A stretch of 64,000 bases of DNA from an uncultured Verrucomicrobiota bacterium (lineage in GTDB: Bacteria; Verrucomicrobiota; Verrucomicrobiia; Limisphaerales; UBA9464). Location: positions 134,603 through 198,602 of the forward strand of contig CAIXUG010000069.1 in assembly GCA_903922605.1 (NCBI GenBank). Direction: 5' to 3'. The translations under genes were made by a program, and so were the position numbers. The notes beneath the pieces were generated by a model, which was given only the letters and a program-made list of their open reading frames with translations, did no database searches and was not told the origin of the DNA. Below are positions 2,832 to 10,057 of this stretch, piece after piece (positions within the stretch are counted from its first letter, which is position 1; every line of letters begins with the position of its first letter).

Positions 2832-3425
2832 TCACTCACGCCCGCCGTTGCGGGTAAAGATTTTTCCCGGCAACTGTCGCACGAGCTTTTTCATTTCAAG
2901 GCTGAAGAGCGAGACATTGACCGCGCTGGCCGGCAACCCGCTGGCCCGGATGACCTCGTCCACCGACCGCTCTTCCCCGGCACCAAGCACCGCCAGCACC
3001 TTGGCCTCATTGTCCGACAGTGCGAGGCCCGGCAGCGTTCCCGTTTCCGAGGGAGAAGCTGGCCGGTTGCTGGCCGGAAACAGGTACTCAAACTCGCTCA
3101 GGATATCCTCGATGCCCTCGCAGAGCTTGGCGCCTTTCTTGATGAGATCGTGGCAGCCCTTGCTGCGCGGCGAATCAATCCGGCCCGGTACCGCGAAAAC
3201 CTGCCGGCCATACTCGTTGGCGAAATTGGCCGTGATGAGCGCGCCACTGGTGAGGTTCGCCTCGACTACCACCGTGCCGAGCGTCATGCCGGCCACGATG
3301 CGGTTGCGGATCGGGAAGGACTGCTTGTCCGCCGGCCGGTTGAAAGGGAACTGGCTGATGACTGCCCCATTGGCCGCGATGCGCTCGAACAGCTCCGCGT
3401 TCTCCGGTGGGAACACAATGTTGAT
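2832..3425 (-). pseudogene. dprA: dprA, 3' portion (C-terminal half), interrupted by an integrated element
   Basis: This frame encodes the C-terminal part of DprA/Smf, the DNA-processing protein that loads RecA on incoming single strands during transformation. Visible are INIVFPPENAELFERI, the Rossmann-fold motif FPIRNRIVAGM, TSGALITANFANEYGRQVFAVPG, and a C-terminal winged-helix domain (LALSDNEAKVLAVL to KIFTRNGGRE). The frame runs upstream to 3530, but codons above the TTGAT at 3421-3425 belong to the element and are unrelated to DprA. The N-terminal half lies 6 kb away at 9489-10057 on the same strand. Joining them through one TTGAT gives one uninterrupted frame of 374 codons from the ATG at 10021. 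Confidence 0.95.
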
Positions 3426-3443
3426 TCTGTTATCTTTTACACC
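3404..3443. other. attL: left junction of the integrated element
   Basis: Chromosomal dprA sequence runs to 3420. TTGAT (3421-3425) is shared with the right junction at 9489-9493. Beyond it, 3434-3443 reads CTTTTACACC, the exact reverse complement of GGTGTAAAAG at 9468-9477 by the other junction. The chromosomal side carries TGGGAAC (3408-3414), one arm of an imperfect inverted repeat of the deduced attB. Confidence 0.85.
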
Positions 3444-3455
3444 TACAATCAATTC

Positions 3456-5072
3456 GTGCGCAAAATTGCCTATTCCTACATCCGTTTCAGCACGGCACAG
3501 CAGAAACTCGGTGACAGCAAAAGGCGACAATTAGCGGCTGCGGAGGCTTATTGCGCGGAGAACGGCTACACGCTCGACACTTCCTTATCGCTCACCGATG
3601 AAGGCGTATCTGGGTTCAAGGGAAAGAATCTAACGCACGGGAAATTGGGCGAATTTGTCCGACTGGTTGATTCGGGAGTCATCAAACCCGGCGCGACCTT
3701 AATCATCGAGAATTTGGATCGGCTGACCCGCACGAACATCGTCGATGCGCAGACCCTCTTTCTCCGTTTGGTCTCAGCCGGCATCGCCATCGTAACGCTA
3801 ACGGATCGGCAGCACTATTCACGGGAAAGCATCGAGGAACGCCCAGAACGGCTCTACGTTTCGCTTGGAGGGCTGATCCGAGCCAATGAGGAGTCCGCCA
3901 CAAAAGGCACCCGAATCAGGGCGGCGCGGGCAAAGAGACGCGAAGAGGCAAAAACTGGTTTTCCAGTCAAAGCATGGACTCCGCCATGGTGTGATTTTCA
4001 AAATGGCCAGTTCGTCGTCAACCAAGCCAAAGCAGCGTTGGTGCGAAGACTGTTCGATTTGTATCTCGGGGGCCAAGGAAGCTTCTCCATCGCCAAGCTC
4101 CTTAACGCGGAGAAAATCGCTCCGCTGGGTCGAAGCTCCAAGGGAAGGAAGGCGTCGGAGTGGTACAAAAAAATCATCTACGACATTTTACGGGACAAGC
4201 GGGTTTACGGTTTCGCGCACCAGCTAGAAAAAGAAGACTACTACCCGCCAATCCTGCCCCGAGAGACATTCCTCCGCGCCCAGCATGTCAATGGAGAGCG
4301 GAGAAAGAAAAAAGGACCGACGGGCAAGACCGTGGGCAATCTCTTCACCGGCTTGGCTTACTGCTCTAGCTGCGCCGGTCCAATGAGCAAGACTCCAAAG
4401 CATCGCGGCAAAAGACGGTACGAGTATCTGGTTTGCGAAAATAGCCGCGCCGGAAAAACGTGCCTCTATCGGAGCATTCCGTACCCCGCTTTCGAGGGTG
4501 CCTTTTTCGGCGCGATAGCATCGAACGAGTTTTTTGGCACGCTAATCGACGCCAACAACGGCGCGGCGGATCGTATCGAGGCCAAACAAGGCGAGCTTGC
4601 CGAATACCGTAGGCAATTGGAGGCCATCAATGTGGCGCTGGCCGACTACACGGTGTTTCCCAAACTCCTAGTGGAGAAAATCAACGATCTGGAGGCGAAG
4701 GTGAAAAAGAGTTCGGCCGAACTCTTGGCGCTAGAAGGGGCCAGAGTTCCTGTGAGCGACGACGAAAACTTGGGGGAGATTCTCGGTCTGACCAACGAGT
4801 GGCAGGATTTGATTCCCACCAAAGAATTTCGCCTCAAGGTGCGCGAAAGCCTACGCCGACAAATTCAGAGCCTGACTATCGACACCTTGAGCAACCCATG
4901 GAGCTGCGTCATCCGTTTCAAGTCGTCCAAAGCCGTGGGATTCCGTTTCTGGCGCGTTGAGGATGCGTCAGGCGTGTCGGTGGACTTGGACATTTTTAAC
5001 CCGGACGACGGCAAGAAAGTAGGAAAAACCAGATGCTGGCCCTTCAGCCCAGACTGGAAAGACGCGTGGTGA
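3456..5072 (+). CDS. Large serine recombinase (integrase of the element)
   Basis: 538 residues from the GTG at 3456. The N-terminal resolvase domain has the catalytic serine in YIRFSTAQQ (S12), then DEGVSGFKGKN and ENLDRLTR. A Recombinase domain follows (about 170-270). A zinc ribbon comes next (YCSSC, later CENS and KTC, about 302-340) interrupted by a coiled coil rich in E/K (about 370-430), the layout of phage-type large serine integrases. It acts on att sites with a 2-bp crossover. The frame is open further upstream, but that part is antisense dprA. The start lies only 35 bp inside the left end, so integration changes what is upstream of it. No strong Shine-Dalgarno sequence is seen. Confidence 0.95.
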   Translation: MRKIAYSYIRFSTAQQKLGDSKRRQLAAAEAYCAENGYTLDTSLSLTDEGVSGFKGKNLTHGKLGEFVRLVDSGVIKPGATLIIENLDRLTRTNIVDAQTLFLRLVSAGIAIVTLTDRQHYSRESIEERPERLYVSLGGLIRANEESATKGTRIRAARAKRREEAKTGFPVKAWTPPWCDFQNGQFVVNQAKAALVRRLFDLYLGGQGSFSIAKLLNAEKIAPLGRSSKGRKASEWYKKIIYDILRDKRVYGFAHQLEKEDYYPPILPRETFLRAQHVNGERRKKKGPTGKTVGNLFTGLAYCSSCAGPMSKTPKHRGKRRYEYLVCENSRAGKTCLYRSIPYPAFEGAFFGAIASNEFFGTLIDANNGAADRIEAKQGELAEYRRQLEAINVALADYTVFPKLLVEKINDLEAKVKKSSAELLALEGARVPVSDDENLGEILGLTNEWQDLIPTKEFRLKVRESLRRQIQSLTIDTLSNPWSCVIRFKSSKAVGFRFWRVEDASGVSVDLDIFNPDDGKKVGKTRCWPFSPDWKDAW

Positions 5073-5180
5073 ACTTGAGCCCCTACGGAGATTGGTTCCA
5101 TGCAAGACGGTTCCCCGGAGGATCGGCTAGCCTGCAAAATCCATCCCTTTTTCACCCAAGCGTGCGTAATTGCATTTTCG

Positions 5181-5199
5181 AGGGCAAAAAAAATGCCCT
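5181..5199. terminator. Hairpin between convergent element genes
   Basis: AGGGCA and TGCCCT form a perfect 6-bp stem around seven A residues, in the 208-bp gap between the large serine recombinase and the convergent coiled-coil gene. No U-tract follows on either strand, so termination is only a possibility. The rest of the 5073-5280 gap shows nothing I can name. Confidence 0.3.
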
Positions 5200-5280
5200 G
5201 TGTGTAAAGCACGTGTGGGTAGGTCTGGGACACAAATTCGCGTTCCATCCAGACACGTTTTTCAAGTTACTGGTTCAGAG

Positions 5281-5586
5281 TTACTTACGTAGCCTCTTGC
5301 GTTCTGCGTCGATCTCCTTCTTTCGCTTTTCCACCGCGCGCAGCTTCTGCTTTTTCACGGCTATATCTGCCACTTTCGCCTTCAAACGCGCCATATCCCC
5401 GTCGAAACGGTCTATTTGTTTTTCTTTGCCTTCCGTGACGGTGGCCATTCCATGTTCCTCGTAACGGCGCAGGATTCCGTCCTCTTCTCGGATGGCCGCT
5501 GCCGCGATGGCGAGATGCTTGTTCGTGAGCACGCGCAAATTCACCGCACGCTCAAAGTCTGCTTGCCGGATGGGGCCGCTGCTCAT
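5281..5586 (-). CDS. Small coiled-coil protein, translationally coupled to the Rep-like gene
   Basis: 101 residues. The N-terminal third (MSSGPIRQADFERAVN) is followed by long charged heptad-like helices (GKEKQIDRFDGDMARLKAKVADIAVKKQKLRAVEKRKKEIDAE) that should form a coiled coil. It ends in a basic RKRLRK tail. The start overlaps the stop of the upstream Rep-like gene as ATGA, with a clear GGAGG four bases before the ATG, so translation is coupled. I do not recognise the family. Co-expression with an HUH protein suggests a replication accessory, a relaxosome-like partner or a recombination directionality factor; these are guesses from position. Confidence 0.7.
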   Translation of the reverse strand: MSSGPIRQADFERAVNLRVLTNKHLAIAAAAIREEDGILRRYEEHGMATVTEGKEKQIDRFDGDMARLKAKVADIAVKKQKLRAVEKRKKEIDAERKRLRK

Positions 5587-6152
5587 GCTGCCTCCTTCAG
5601 TTCTTGGCCGGCGAGCGCCTTGCGTTTCAAATAGTGAATCGGCGGCGTGTAGCAGCTTTGCATGAACGGGTTGTCCTTGGTGATGTAGCGCAACCAGCCG
5701 TCATCTTCGTACCCTCGGTAGTGGCTGACACCGTGCTTCCTCCAGTTCCTCTTCAGCCAAGAAACCAAGGCGAGTTCATCGGGAAAGGAATTTTCCGAAC
5801 CCCGGAGGTAGTGAAATTCCGGCGTCGCATCCATGAGGACGAAATGGCAGTGAAGTCGTTCTTTCGAGTCGTACTCCCAGCGCCAATAGACCGGGACGTT
5901 TCTCCAGTCGAATTCGCCATTTAGGTGCCAACTCAGGGCACTAAATAGCTTTTTCACTTTGTCGTTTTGCGTATCCAAGTGCTTCGTCTTGAAGCTCAGG
6001 GTTCCGCATATTTTCCAGCCATCGCCGCATGGGGGGAAGTTGGTGATTTTCAGCAACCACGAACGATCCGGATGGAAGGGTCTTTGGGTGATTGGGTTAA
6101 TTTCTATTTCTGTTTTTACAGGCATTTCGCCGATTATGGTGTGTTTTTTCAT
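5583..6152 (-). CDS. HUH-endonuclease Rep-like protein (rolling-circle type, probable)
   Basis: 189 residues from the ATG at 6152; a TTG at 6173 would add seven. Three features match rolling-circle Rep proteins: a motif-1-like strand (GTLSFKT), the metal-binding HUH motif in RLHCHFVLMD (His 101 and 103), and a motif-3-like tyrosine in GWLRYITK (Y156). VYWRWEYDSKERLHCHF matches the usual W-x-E-x(n)-GRLHCH context. Such proteins nick one strand at an origin through a phosphotyrosine link. The protein is short, and no helicase or winged-helix domain is obvious. The gene is first in a two-gene coupled operon. A palindrome at 6182-6198 lies 30 bp upstream. The family call is by motif only. Confidence 0.6.
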   Translation of the reverse strand: MKKHTIIGEMPVKTEIEINPITQRPFHPDRSWLLKITNFPPCGDGWKICGTLSFKTKHLDTQNDKVKKLFSALSWHLNGEFDWRNVPVYWRWEYDSKERLHCHFVLMDATPEFHYLRGSENSFPDELALVSWLKRNWRKHGVSHYRGYEDDGWLRYITKDNPFMQSCYTPPIHYLKRKALAGQELKEAA

Positions 6153-6173
6153 ATGTAATTTGTTGATAGTCAA

Positions 6174-6483
6174 GGACTACCGAACCGAAAATCGGTTCCG
6201 CATGCGTTACGCTCTTGAATCAACCTCCTACTGGTGGCCGGGAATTCCGCTGGACCAACAGGCGTTCAATTTCAACCTCCTTGATTTGCCGACAATCATA
6301 CATAGTTCTGCTTGACTTTTCGATTTAATTTATTTTGGAAATCTTCGCCCTCCTGCGGCGAAAGCAGCCAGCAGAGGGATCTCATTTGCATGTAACCTGT
6401 AATCAGCAACTTACAAAGAAATGAACACATTTTCTTTAGAATTTGTGTTTACGGCGCGACGATTTCCCTTCAGATTCTGACCC
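6174..6483. other. AT-rich divergent intergenic region of the element
   Basis: About 310 bp between the divergent Rep-like and second recombinase genes. It is the most AT-rich stretch of the window, for example around 6310-6340 and 6410-6450. It holds the 6182-6198 palindrome and must contain promoters for both genes. I see no coding frame, no iteron array and no confident -35/-10 pair. Confidence 0.6.
6182..6198. promoter_or_regulatory. Perfect 7-bp palindrome upstream of the Rep-like gene
   Basis: GAACCGA-AAA-TCGGTTC is a perfect inverted repeat 30 bp upstream of the Rep-like ATG. It could be an operator for control of replication or the nick-site hairpin of an origin. There is no T-tract after it on the minus strand, so a terminator is less likely. 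Confidence 0.4.
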
Positions 6484-7176
6484 GTGAAAGCGAAAGAGAA
6501 GGCGTTTGGGTATCTTCGGACCTCCGGCAAAGGACAGATCGGCAATGACGGCTTTCCGCGCCAGCGCGAGGCCATTGCGTCTTACGCCAAGAGCAATCGC
6601 CTTGAAATTGTCCAAGAATTTTCGGATGAGGCTGTCAGTGGCACCACGGATGCGATGGATCGAAACGGGCTCACGGATTTGCTAGTCGCCCTAAAGGCCA
6701 ACGGCGTGCGTCTGGTGGTGGTGGAAAATGCGACACGACTTGCGCGGGACTTGATGATTTCAGAAATCATCCTCAGCGAGTTCCGTAAAATCGGGGTTCG
6801 GGTCATTTCCGCAGATGGAGATGTTGACCTGACTTTGGGCAATGACGATCCCACCGGAAAATTAATTCGTCAGATCCTTGGAGCCGTTAGCGAGTGGGAA
6901 AAATGCGCTTTGGTCCAAAAGCTCCGCGCCTCACGGCTTCGTTTGCGCCGGGCCGGCGAGCGTTGCGAAGGTCGCAAGCCCTACGGTCAAAACGCCGAAG
7001 AGAAAACCGTTATCGCACGAATCTTGGCACTTCGCGAAGAACGTCTCTCGTTCGTCGCCATCGCCGCCAAATTGAATGCGGATGGGGTTCGGTCGAGGTC
7101 GAACAAGCAATGGCACGCCACACAGGTTCAACGCGTGCTTCAGCGTGGAAGTAGGCTTAAGGCCGGGGCGCGTTAA
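6484..7176 (+). CDS. Serine recombinase (resolvase/invertase family)
   Basis: 230 residues from a GTG. The resolvase domain has YLRTSGKGQ, in which the serine after RT is the likely nucleophile. It continues with FPRQREAIASYA, DEAVSGTTDAMDRNGL, VVVENATRLARDLM and DDPTGKLIRQILGAVSEWEK. A short DNA-binding tail of Recombinase type follows (PYGQNAEEKTVIARILALREERLSFVAIAAKLNADGV). It lacks the zinc ribbon and coiled coil of the larger enzyme. It may resolve multimers, invert DNA or help excision. Having two serine recombinases in one 6-kb element is uncommon. Its 3' end overlaps the convergent membrane-protein gene by 20 bp. Confidence 0.92.
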   Translation: MKAKEKAFGYLRTSGKGQIGNDGFPRQREAIASYAKSNRLEIVQEFSDEAVSGTTDAMDRNGLTDLLVALKANGVRLVVVENATRLARDLMISEIILSEFRKIGVRVISADGDVDLTLGNDDPTGKLIRQILGAVSEWEKCALVQKLRASRLRLRRAGERCEGRKPYGQNAEEKTVIARILALREERLSFVAIAAKLNADGVRSRSNKQWHATQVQRVLQRGSRLKAGAR

Positions 7177-7507
7177 TTGCCGTTCGCCTCCTAAGTTTCT
7201 TGATATGAATCATTTGCAGAACAGCAACAGGGAACAAAAAAGCCGAACTCATGTAGAGTGCCTGCTTTATCCCACCCGGCTCTCCCGGTCCATCCCGCTT
7301 TAACAAGAACATGGCATCCGATCCTCCGGTATCTCGTCCTAGCTGGATGTCATCGTCGACCCGTTTCTGAATTCTGGTCATATTTGCGTTGTACGCTTCC
7401 TCGTTCGCTTTTTCAGACCATAATGCAGGAATAAACCAAGGAAACACGCTGAGGACCACCAGAAATAAGGCGAGCTTGCCTTGCCATGTCTTGAATTGAT
7501 TTTTCAT
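7157..7507 (-). CDS. Small two-helix membrane protein of the element
   Basis: 116 residues from the ATG at 7507. One hydrophobic helix lies near the N-terminus (LALFLVVLSVFPWFIPAL, about 12-29), followed by a polar region (ANEEAYNANMTRIQKRVDDDI). A second hydrophobic segment follows (ALYMSSAFLFPVAVLQMI, about 83-100), then a basic tail (HIKKLRRR). I do not recognise the family. It sits in the accessory part of the element, next to the nested inverted repeats. The start is supported by the hydrophobic profile only. Confidence 0.5.
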   Translation of the reverse strand: MKNQFKTWQGKLALFLVVLSVFPWFIPALWSEKANEEAYNANMTRIQKRVDDDIQLGRDTGGSDAMFLLKRDGPGEPGGIKQALYMSSAFLFPVAVLQMIHIKKLRRRTAINAPRP

Positions 7508-7567
7508 TTCGTTTTCCCACGCAACCGAGCGTGGTCAGAAATGGAAAAGGCGCGCATCCAACGCGCC

Positions 7568-7690
7568 CAACTGGAGGCCCTGAGAGGTGCCCATTCGGAA
7601 AACGCGCCAAGACACGCGCCCAATGGGCACGCGTCAGGACGGATTCCGAATGTGTGTGGGTCTGACGGAAGTCTCTCAGGTTTCCAGTTG
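7568..7690. repeat. Nested, alternative inverted repeats (possible ssDNA origin or structured RNA)
   Basis: Outer arms CAACTGGA..CCTGAGAG (7569-7586) pair with CTCTCAGG..TCCAGTTG (7673-7690) apart from a 2-3-base bulge. Inside, CATTCGGAA (7592-7600) is perfectly complementary to TTCCGAATG (7644-7652). GTGCCCATT (7587-7595) is perfectly complementary to AATGGGCAC (7622-7630). The two inner hairpins share bases, so they exclude each other. The 274-bp region has no convincing gene. It could be a single-strand origin, a recombination site for the second recombinase, or an RNA switch upstream of the cargo gene. Confidence 0.6.
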
Positions 7691-7781
7691 TCCAACCCAA
7701 CTACGCTAAAATTTGCATGGCATTTCTCGCAGGGAAGTGGTGCATTTTCAACGAATTTTCCCTAGAATCGTGATCCATAGC

Positions 7782-9398
7782 ATGGTGAAATTCCCCGTGC
7801 TTTCAGACAACCGCCGACTGCTCCGACTTTGTTGTATGCCGATGGTGGCCCTTACTGTTTCCGCTTCGGGAATCTCTGTCACACTAGACCAGAATCGGCT
7901 TTCAGTCCAAGCACCCGACGGCGCACCGGTTGTGATTGAACAGTCTGAAGACTTGGTGATGTGGAGTGACTTGGGCAGCGGCATCGCCACCGACGGATAT
8001 TTTCTTAAGGAAATTTCGGGGGGGGGTACGCGCTATTTCCGTGCCCACGCGGGCGCTACTGTTATCGCCACCAATGCGAGCCCGTTTGTCCTGACGGTGA
8101 ACCCTGAGCTAGTCACGATGCCAGACGGCCAGATTTGGCGGGTGGCTCCGCAGACCGTCACGGTTCATCCCGGCACAAACTATCTGGCCGGTGATCTATT
8201 CGACGGGCGACTCCACGTTCTCAAGCGCCGCCTACATGACGGCGCGGTTTATTACTCACGGGTGATCGCCGACACCAACGGGGTCACACAGGTTGAGCCG
8301 ATCAACGCGGTGCTTCCGATTACTGCGATCCCAAAAACAAAGGCTGCCATCGCAGCACATCAGGCGCTCAAGGTCGTTCTTGTCGGGGACTCGCTGGAGC
8401 AGGGCGCAGGCATAGCGGATTATCATGGAACGTGGCCCTTCTTGGTGTTCGATGCCACGGCAACTACCAACGCGTGGTCATTGCGACCGGAGGTGTCCCC
8501 ACTCACTTACCGGAACTTCGGAATCGGAGGGATTACGGCCGAATATGGGCTGATTGCGACACGCCCCGGCAGTCCTGTCCTTACTACCGGATATGACCTA
8601 GCGATTGTGGGCTTCGGTGCCAATCCCGGCACGGGCGATGCTGTGCTAGTTGAGTCCATGGTGCATGAACTTCGCTCGGCAGGAATCGAAGTTATTCTGC
8701 AAAGCGGGGAGCAAAGGCAAGATGGCATCGCCACACCGTTTCTCGACACCGACGTGTTTTTGGCGGGTATTGCAGCCAACCAAGGCTGTGCTCTCGCAGA
8801 CACCTACTCGTACATGCTTGAGAACGATGGGAACTACTCGACAGACAAGGTTCACCCGTCGGAGCTGGGGCATCAAGTTTGGGCAGGCTGCATGCGGTCT
8901 CTCCTGAACGGTCTGCCACAGGAATCCAAGGCCGTCGTTCCGGCTTCCGAATTCCAGTCTCTGACGAGCTTGCCCGAATCCCTACGTGGTGCATTTCCCA
9001 CGTCAACCACGGTCCAATTCACGCCCACGACCACCACGGGAATTTCTGCGGCCAGCCTTTTCCCGTACAACACGATGGGCGTGGTTCTTGGGAAAATCCC
9101 GGCTCTCTCCGCCGTCAACGTCCTTGTGGTAGGGCAGAGCGCCACCTTCCATGCCGACTCGGCCTGTGCCGTGTCGTTATTGACAGAAAATCCAAACGGA
9201 GTGCAGGCAGAGGTTTTGGTCGAGTACGGCAATGGGATGCCCAACAGAAGTCTGACCGTGAATGGTTTTTTCCTCCCAAGGATCACCCCTTCATCGGGCA
9301 TTGGCACATGGAACACCAATCTGCCGGTTGACCTGACCATCACCGTCACGGATGGAGTTTTGACTCTCGCTGGAGTGTCGTTCCCTGTGCGTCACTAA
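7782..9398 (+). CDS. Secreted SGNH/GDSL-hydrolase-like protein (element cargo)
   Basis: 538 residues from the ATG at 7782, which gives a signal-peptide-like start (basic LSDNRRLLRL, then CCMPMVALTVSASG). All four SGNH blocks are visible: VVLVGDSLEQ (S204), a glycine block (NFGIGGIT), an N in GFGANPG (N281) and a D-x-x-H pair in DKVHPSELG (D355, H358). Residues 25-195 and the last 140 look like beta-rich accessory domains. SGNH enzymes deacylate lipids or acetylated sugars; the substrate here is unknown. A run of nine G at 8018-8026 codes three glycines and could slip, switching the gene off. It is the only cargo-like gene of the element. Confidence 0.75.
   Translation: MVKFPVLSDNRRLLRLCCMPMVALTVSASGISVTLDQNRLSVQAPDGAPVVIEQSEDLVMWSDLGSGIATDGYFLKEISGGGTRYFRAHAGATVIATNASPFVLTVNPELVTMPDGQIWRVAPQTVTVHPGTNYLAGDLFDGRLHVLKRRLHDGAVYYSRVIADTNGVTQVEPINAVLPITAIPKTKAAIAAHQALKVVLVGDSLEQGAGIADYHGTWPFLVFDATATTNAWSLRPEVSPLTYRNFGIGGITAEYGLIATRPGSPVLTTGYDLAIVGFGANPGTGDAVLVESMVHELRSAGIEVILQSGEQRQDGIATPFLDTDVFLAGIAANQGCALADTYSYMLENDGNYSTDKVHPSELGHQVWAGCMRSLLNGLPQESKAVVPASEFQSLTSLPESLRGAFPTSTTVQFTPTTTTGISAASLFPYNTMGVVLGKIPALSAVNVLVVGQSATFHADSACAVSLLTENPNGVQAEVLVEYGNGMPNRSLTVNGFFLPRITPSSGIGTWNTNLPVDLTITVTDGVLTLAGVSFPVRH
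8018..8026 (+). repeat. Poly-G tract (G9) inside the SGNH gene
   Basis: Nine consecutive G residues inside the reading frame, coding GGG near residue 80. Mononucleotide G runs of this length are prone to slipped-strand mispairing and are the usual substrate of phase variation. In the given sequence the frame is open. Confidence 0.7.
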
Positions 9399-9467
9399 TT
9401 CAAAACCAGCCCAATTCTCCAATAAAAGTGCATGTTTCTGTGTTTTGAAGATCAATTTCTGGTGGTG

Positions 9468-9504
9468 GGTGTAAAAGTTACTTCTATCTTGATGCCCGTA
9501 CCCA
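9468..9504. other. attR: right junction of the integrated element
   Basis: Element sequence ends with GGTGTAAAAG (9468-9477) and 11 more bases, followed by the shared TTGAT (9489-9493). Chromosomal dprA resumes with GCCCGTACCCA. The chromosomal arm GTACCCA (9498-9504) mirrors TGGGAAC at the left junction with one mismatch. Together they form the inverted repeat of the deduced attB, centred on the same TT. Confidence 0.85.
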
Positions 9505-10057
9505 GCACCGCGACGGTGCGCCCTTTCGCCGTGAGCGCGCCCTGATGCGCGGCAGTGTCGATCCCCCGCGCGCCACCGCTCACGACCGTCACGCCAGTAT
9601 AAGCGAGCTGGTAGCCGAACTTGCGGGCGACCTCCAGGCCGTAGGTCGTCGTCTGCCGCGAACCGACCATGGCGACCGAATTCTTGTCCTCCGGTTTGAG
9701 CGCGCCTTTCACGTAGAGCACGGCCGGCGGATCATAGATTTCCCGGAGCGACGGCGGGAATTCCTCGTCGAACTGGGTCACTACCCGACAGCCGAAATCC
9801 GCGATGCGTTTGAGTTCGCCGGCAAGATCCACCGACTTCTCCCAGCCGTTGATGGACTCCGCCGTGTCCTCGCCAATGCCGCGCACCGCCTGCAACTGGT
9901 GCTTGCTGGCGCGCAGGATCGCGGCGGGATCATCGCCGAAATGATCCAGCAGGTGGCGCAGCCTGACCGGGCCGACGTGCTCGACCATGTTCAGGGCAAT
10001 CAGGGCTTCCCGGGCGTCCATTGGCAGCGAAATACCGGAGGAAGTGACGGAATGCAA
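9489..10057 (-). pseudogene. dprA: dprA, 5' portion (N-terminal half), interrupted by the element
   Basis: This encodes the N-terminal helix-hairpin-helix/SAM-like region (ALIALNMVEHVGPVRLRHLLDHFGD, VRGIGEDTAESI) and the first half of the DprA Rossmann fold (NSVAMVGSRQTTTYG, VVSGGARGIDTAAHQGAL, VAVLGTGI). After LGTGI the frame runs 11 codons into element sequence and stops at 9452. The best start is the ATG at 10021 (MDAREALIAL); a TTG at 10057 would add 12 residues. As integrated, the two halves cannot make the complete fold. DprA is cytoplasmic and binds ssDNA and RecA, so natural transformation should be impaired unless the element excises. Confidence 0.95.

Follow-up and report, generated by a model that had tools for sequence, protein, structure and literature searches.

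Integrated plasmids with virus-like Reps and without structural genes are known (Kazlauskas 2019, PMC6668415), and IMEs with RCR-type relaxases have also been described (Coluzzi 2017, PMC5357655), so that the element analyzed here is not, as a first-pass annotation of the same DNA had put it, one that fits no nameable class. Like pCRESS1-9, it bears a Rep, sits site-specifically in a bacterial chromosome and lacks viral structural genes. The differences are in the Rep, which in the pCRESS plasmids has nuclease and helicase parts (PMC6668415) and here is a short PF23343 protein with the nuclease alone, and in the presence of two serine recombinases, one large and one small. With RCR-relaxase IMEs it shares small size, an integrase, an RCR-initiator-like protein and the absence of a mating pore, and exchange of integrase modules is common to both kinds of element (PMC5357655). 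It departs from the surveyed IMEs of this type, which have tyrosine integrases only (PMC5357655), in its serine integrase and verrucomicrobial host, and no coupling protein or oriT was recognized in it. Inoviruses and microviruses have G2P/ORF2-type Reps of the same PF23343 family with a similar predicted fold, but no coat, assembly ATPase or packaging genes were recognized in the present element.

Mobile elements are also known to insert into competence genes, which offers a second point of comparison. The available portions of the relevant papers list comK, comYC, comFA and comM as disrupted genes and radC as a further target (Croucher 2016, PMC4774983; PMC11472951), describe islands in comM (PMC11472951), and record one strain in which a phage disrupts pilQ (PMC4774983; PMC11472951) and, for Piscirickettsia, transposable elements that interrupt comEC (PMC12955456). 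The elements considered here likewise hit genes for natural transformation, and such insertions are expected to block curing through recombination; as far as those portions of PMC4774983 and PMC11472951 go, they differ in their additional targets, dprA (twice) and comEC, and in carrying serine integrases. Within a limited literature search, neither dprA nor comEC was reported to host a replicon with a serine integrase. If our reading is correct, the known range of rolling-circle integrative replicons would grow by a phylum for which the same limited search found none described, dprA would join the competence genes that mobile elements split, and a possible link between such replicons and competence loss would emerge.

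Boundaries and gene content of the element in dprA

The window, a stretch of 64,000 nucleotides, comes from contig C69 of a lake verrucomicrobium MAG (G000), of which G004 is a near relative. Within it, the element spans positions 3421-9493, and its size of about 6.07 kb follows from the pentamer TTGAT, which stands at 3421-3425 (attL core, left boundary) and again at 9489-9493 (attR core, right boundary). The att arms form an inverted repeat (3431-3451 and 9460-9480), and the flanks of the element align to the intact dprA gene of G004 (L060), the closest congener, where the empty site reads ATGTTGATGCCC. Six congeners have a dprA gene that is unsplit at the corresponding site.

The dprA gene is required by bacteria for DNA uptake and recombination. 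In the window, this host gene is interrupted on the minus strand: its C-terminal half (2832-3425; Pfam DNA_processg_A positions 101-210 plus DprA_WH) lies to the left of the element and its N-terminal half (9489-10057; DNA_processg_A positions 3-111) to the right, and a search of the MAG for another dprA was negative at E <= 1e-30. The split is absent from the first-pass annotation. The locus presents a Rep gene and a site-specific integrase between attachment repeats, with the empty site found elsewhere, and, as in competence-disrupting mobile elements, a transformation gene split by the insertion with its halves on both sides.

The large serine integrase (3456-5072, plus strand, with an inferred GTG start) scores above the cut-offs for Pfam Resolvase, Recombinase and Zn_ribbon_recom and matches a PHROG integrase at 2e-69. 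The small serine recombinase (6484-7176, plus strand; Pfam Resolvase, 3e-25) is of the resolvase/invertase type, with a dN/dS of 0.044 against its counterpart in L007 (G004); such a gene also lies near the Rep in L008, L049, L070, L117 and L121, and a remnant is left in L006. Farther to the right are a small predicted membrane protein (7157-7507, minus strand), an ORF without a Pfam match that may be cargo, and a GDSL/SGNH hydrolase (7713-9398, plus strand; Lipase_GDSL_2, 36.7 bits against a cut-off of 32.9), a probable cargo gene. A strong imperfect hairpin (z -3.8) occupies 7560-7700 between these two. The earlier description of a serine-integrase element without capsid or conjugation genes agrees with our scans: with Pfam on all genes of the element and PHROG on four, no capsid, conjugation, Zot/pI or coat gene was detected.

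The Rep gene, its partner and a candidate origin

The HUH Rep is encoded on the minus strand at 5583-6152, counting from the likelier ATG start at 6152; the ORF itself reaches 6173 with a TTG start. The motifs that the first-pass annotation had picked out as HUH and catalytic-tyrosine signatures, RLHCHFVLMD (His-Cys-His) and GWLRYITK, both fall inside this ORF, and the profile search it had proposed placed the protein in PF23343 (REP_ORF2-G2P) with 32.6 bits against a cut-off of 27.8, a family matched by all seven members of alignment A6 (E <= 0.1). Both His and Tyr are retained in 11 of the 12 proteins of alignment A8, and the His-x-His and the catalytic Tyr are also kept in L117 and L121. 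Against the congener G004, rep has a dN/dS of 0.105, indicating purifying selection. The exception in A8 is L005, the Rep homologue at 10435-11007 of L008, in which the His motif reads NVH (His to Asn) and the Tyr is replaced by His, while its dN/dS against L006 is nonetheless low. This homologue may have a non-catalytic role, and with the first His and the Tyr lost, at least one copy can do without catalysis by the Rep. The window Rep had no match in PHROGs, in a plasmid collection or in a phage collection; against the sequences of solved structures, phmmer returned nothing and a profile search returned only kinases and a glutathione transferase.

Two AlphaFold2 jobs were run on the window Rep. 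The first, with an alignment of four close sequences (A1), gave a model too low in confidence for use (pLDDT 37.5, pTM 0.32), after which distant PF23343 proteins were added to form the 12-sequence alignment A8. The second job reached modest confidence (pLDDT 60.6, pTM 0.58) and showed the expected HUH topology, with the order strand, helix, strand, strand with the His pair, helices, and a helix with the Tyr; the fold claim depends on this input, and the added PF23343 proteins may have biased the model towards their own fold. A Foldseek search with this model gave 76 matches at E <= 0.001 in a viral library, several of them named replication initiators and including microvirus Reps. In the PDB, nothing was found at E <= 0.001, the best match being a circovirus Rep at 7e-3, with unrelated folds scoring similarly. 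We regard the HUH assignment as likely on the grounds of sequence, with the predicted structure supporting but not conclusive.

Immediately downstream of rep, a small basic coiled-coil-like protein (5281-5586, minus strand) is translationally coupled to it: the two genes overlap by ATGA, and the GGAGG site reported previously is present, as AAGGAGG, ahead of the second gene. The pair also occurs beyond the window, the coiled-coil gene being kept beside rep in L007, L006 and L008. L051 and L121 have a small ORF in the same position with a 4-nt overlap, and L117 has one about 130 nt downstream of rep, all three without clear sequence similarity to the coiled-coil gene. The dN/dS of the coiled-coil gene against the congener G004 is 0.217.

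Upstream of rep lies a conserved non-coding block (6160-6285, minus strand), a candidate double-strand origin and/or recombination site. It is 94% identical to L007 (G004), compared with 77% for the adjoining intergenic DNA, its limits having been chosen after inspection of the alignment. At 6172-6198 (minus strand), a hairpin with a 7-bp stem (6182-6198) is followed after 3 nt by AGTCCTT (6172-6178), a candidate nick site. A hairpin with AGTYCTT likewise occurs in L007, L070 and L051 (stems of at least 5 bp near the motif; the 2-nt loop in L051 is beyond the limits of the scan, which itself scored 4 bp there) and is absent or weak in L006 and L008. Because such a stem arises at a background rate of 6% per site and the motif was spotted by eye, the assignment of this feature as the origin nick site is suggestive only.

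Rep modules in other elements and the nature of the window element

Besides the copy in the window, the Rep was found a second time in the same genome, twice in G004, once in G548 and once in L070, a contig from a viral collection; samples of the phylum and of the order gave no further copies. It is associated with differing integrases from element to element. On G004:C60, a tyrosine integrase neighbors the small recombinase and the Rep/coiled-coil pair (DNA identity 90%), and the element is bounded by 40-nt repeats of tRNA-Ala that stand 4.8 kb apart. The Rep/coiled-coil pairs on G000:C7 and G004:C26 accompany related tyrosine integrases, and the Rep on G548:C45 another tyrosine integrase. 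L070, an apparently circular contig of 8,305 bp, carries the Rep, the small recombinase, a large serine integrase and a BglII-type R-M pair. Exact repeats inside the contig are all shorter than its 123-nt end overlap, and an LRR gene stays open across the junction. The apparent circularity depends on an assembly overlap within a tandem-repeat gene; the apparently circular form is that of this relative and not of the window element.

Several further features were observed in these contigs. Four repeats of about 105 nt stand between the gene modules of L070 (1805-1909, 3493-3597, 5373-5477 and 7897-7997) and are probably MITEs: an integron-like cassette array was considered and rejected, since terminal inverted repeats and short target duplications seen by eye make MITEs the simpler reading. 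The element in L051 contains a 114-nt direct repeat, 90% identical, around one small gene (5040-5153 and 5726-5839), and L051 also encodes, at 7096-8385, a 429-aa protein without a Pfam match whose motifs give the impression of family A polymerase motifs A and C. L040 (1-3538) encodes a Rep of family PF23343, its ends overlap exactly over 141 nt, and it is possibly a circular replicon of 3.4 kb.

We consider it likely that the window element is an integrative rolling-circle replicon, that is, an integrated small plasmid with IME-like features. The large serine integrase would recombine the circular form with the TTGAT-core site within dprA. After excision, Rep would most likely start rolling-circle copying by nicking an origin with a hairpin that lies directly upstream of rep; the coupled basic coiled-coil protein probably assists or controls Rep, and multimers are probably resolved by the small serine recombinase. 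Because integration breaks dprA, natural transformation is likely disabled, and the element would in this way be shielded from being recombined out. What we observe directly are the gene content, the boundaries, the broken dprA, the empty site, the conserved Rep/coiled-coil pair and its recurrence in relatives; nicking, replication, the origin, resolution and the benefit against curing we infer. With attL, attR and the empty site all in hand, the hypothesis of chromosomal curing of integrative elements is directly testable in this group.

The same genes could be read as an IME, in which the HUH protein acts chiefly as a relaxase and the excised circle passes through the conjugation system of another element. 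The element has an integrase and no mating-pore genes and, if its Rep is taken as a possible relaxase, the gene set of an IME; RCR-type relaxases are present in 118 of 144 streptococcal IMEs (PMC5357655), and coupling-protein matches were obtained in G548 and, weakly, in G000. However, G004 yielded no such match despite its two Rep elements, neither a coupling protein nor an oriT was recognized in the element itself, and the streptococcal survey found RCR-type relaxases with tyrosine integrases only (PMC5357655), all of which makes transfer as the main role of the Rep rather unlikely.

The first-pass annotation had offered an integrative replicon or a satellite, and the former half of this proposal is the one we retain. 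Derivation from an ssDNA phage, filamentous or not, as a satellite or remnant that a helper packages, would account for a Pfam family named for phage proteins (PF23343, ORF2/G2P), the microvirus Reps among the viral Foldseek matches and the filing of L070 as a viral contig. We nevertheless judge it highly improbable: the Rep has no PHROG match, no coat or packaging gene was recognized in the elements examined, no helper with Zot/pI emerged, given that Zot was not found in G000, G004 or G548 (incomplete MAGs), and the viral label of L070 may stem from its apparent circularity and its integrase. It is also improbable, if less so, that the locus is a degenerate, domesticated island, now immobile, whose Rep-like gene has become a regulator. 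The L008 copy, which lacks the first His and the Tyr and still has a low dN/dS, would suit such a fate, but the window element has kept both recombinases, its Rep motifs and its boundaries intact, and a congener lacks the dprA insertion.

Integrase relatives at competence genes

The order was searched with the window integrase, the threshold being relaxed from 1e-60 to 1e-45 after the first competence-gene neighbor had appeared, and matches were obtained in 23 genomes at 1e-45. Both halves of a split gene were seen in G694 (comM) and G607 (dprA). The integrases of G056, G052 and G615 adjoin one comM half, the second half in G615 not being found on the contig stretches examined, and that of G578 adjoins one comEC half (PF03772 from position 32). 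Altogether, dprA, comM or comEC is adjoined by 7 of the 23 integrases placed on a tree, with both halves present in three, these integrases having been chosen by similarity and not at random; for the other 16, a competence-gene target was not demonstrated and the targets are mostly unresolved. Competence targeting did not cluster on the tree (5 label changes versus 6.2 in shuffles, 81 of 500 being as low), so that a preference for competence genes is a hypothesis drawn from 7 of 23.

The location in dprA might be incidental and not selected, as dispensable genes are often disrupted by serine integrases (PMC5704250) and the labels cluster no more than in the shuffles. With 7 of 23 similarity-picked integrases beside dprA, comM or comEC, we hold this to be somewhat doubtful. 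Returning to the integrative replicon, elements that carry a Rep and a serine integrase and put natural transformation out of action may have appeared repeatedly within this order. We propose, tentatively, a recurrent Verrucomicrobiota class that combines a serine integrase, an HUH Rep, a small basic partner and a small serine recombinase, prefers dprA, comM and comEC, and joins autonomous replication to the shutdown of curing. In other genera, related elements bear a replication gene of this kind and interrupt dprA or comM, which suggests a type of parasite that occurs repeatedly and may shut down the means by which it could be removed.

In the elements of G694 and G607, a short basic gene follows rep, whose product is a divergent HUH Rep, and a small serine recombinase is present as well. 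Pfam assigned no family to the Reps of L117 and L121, and a Rep profile built from six close sequences gave E-values for them that were not significant (0.65 and 0.054, respectively); a ten-sequence profile from which both had been left out found L117 at E 2.2e-7 and L121 at E 1.7e-10. A Rep-like ORF is likewise found close to the integrase of G659 and, in part, to that of G655.
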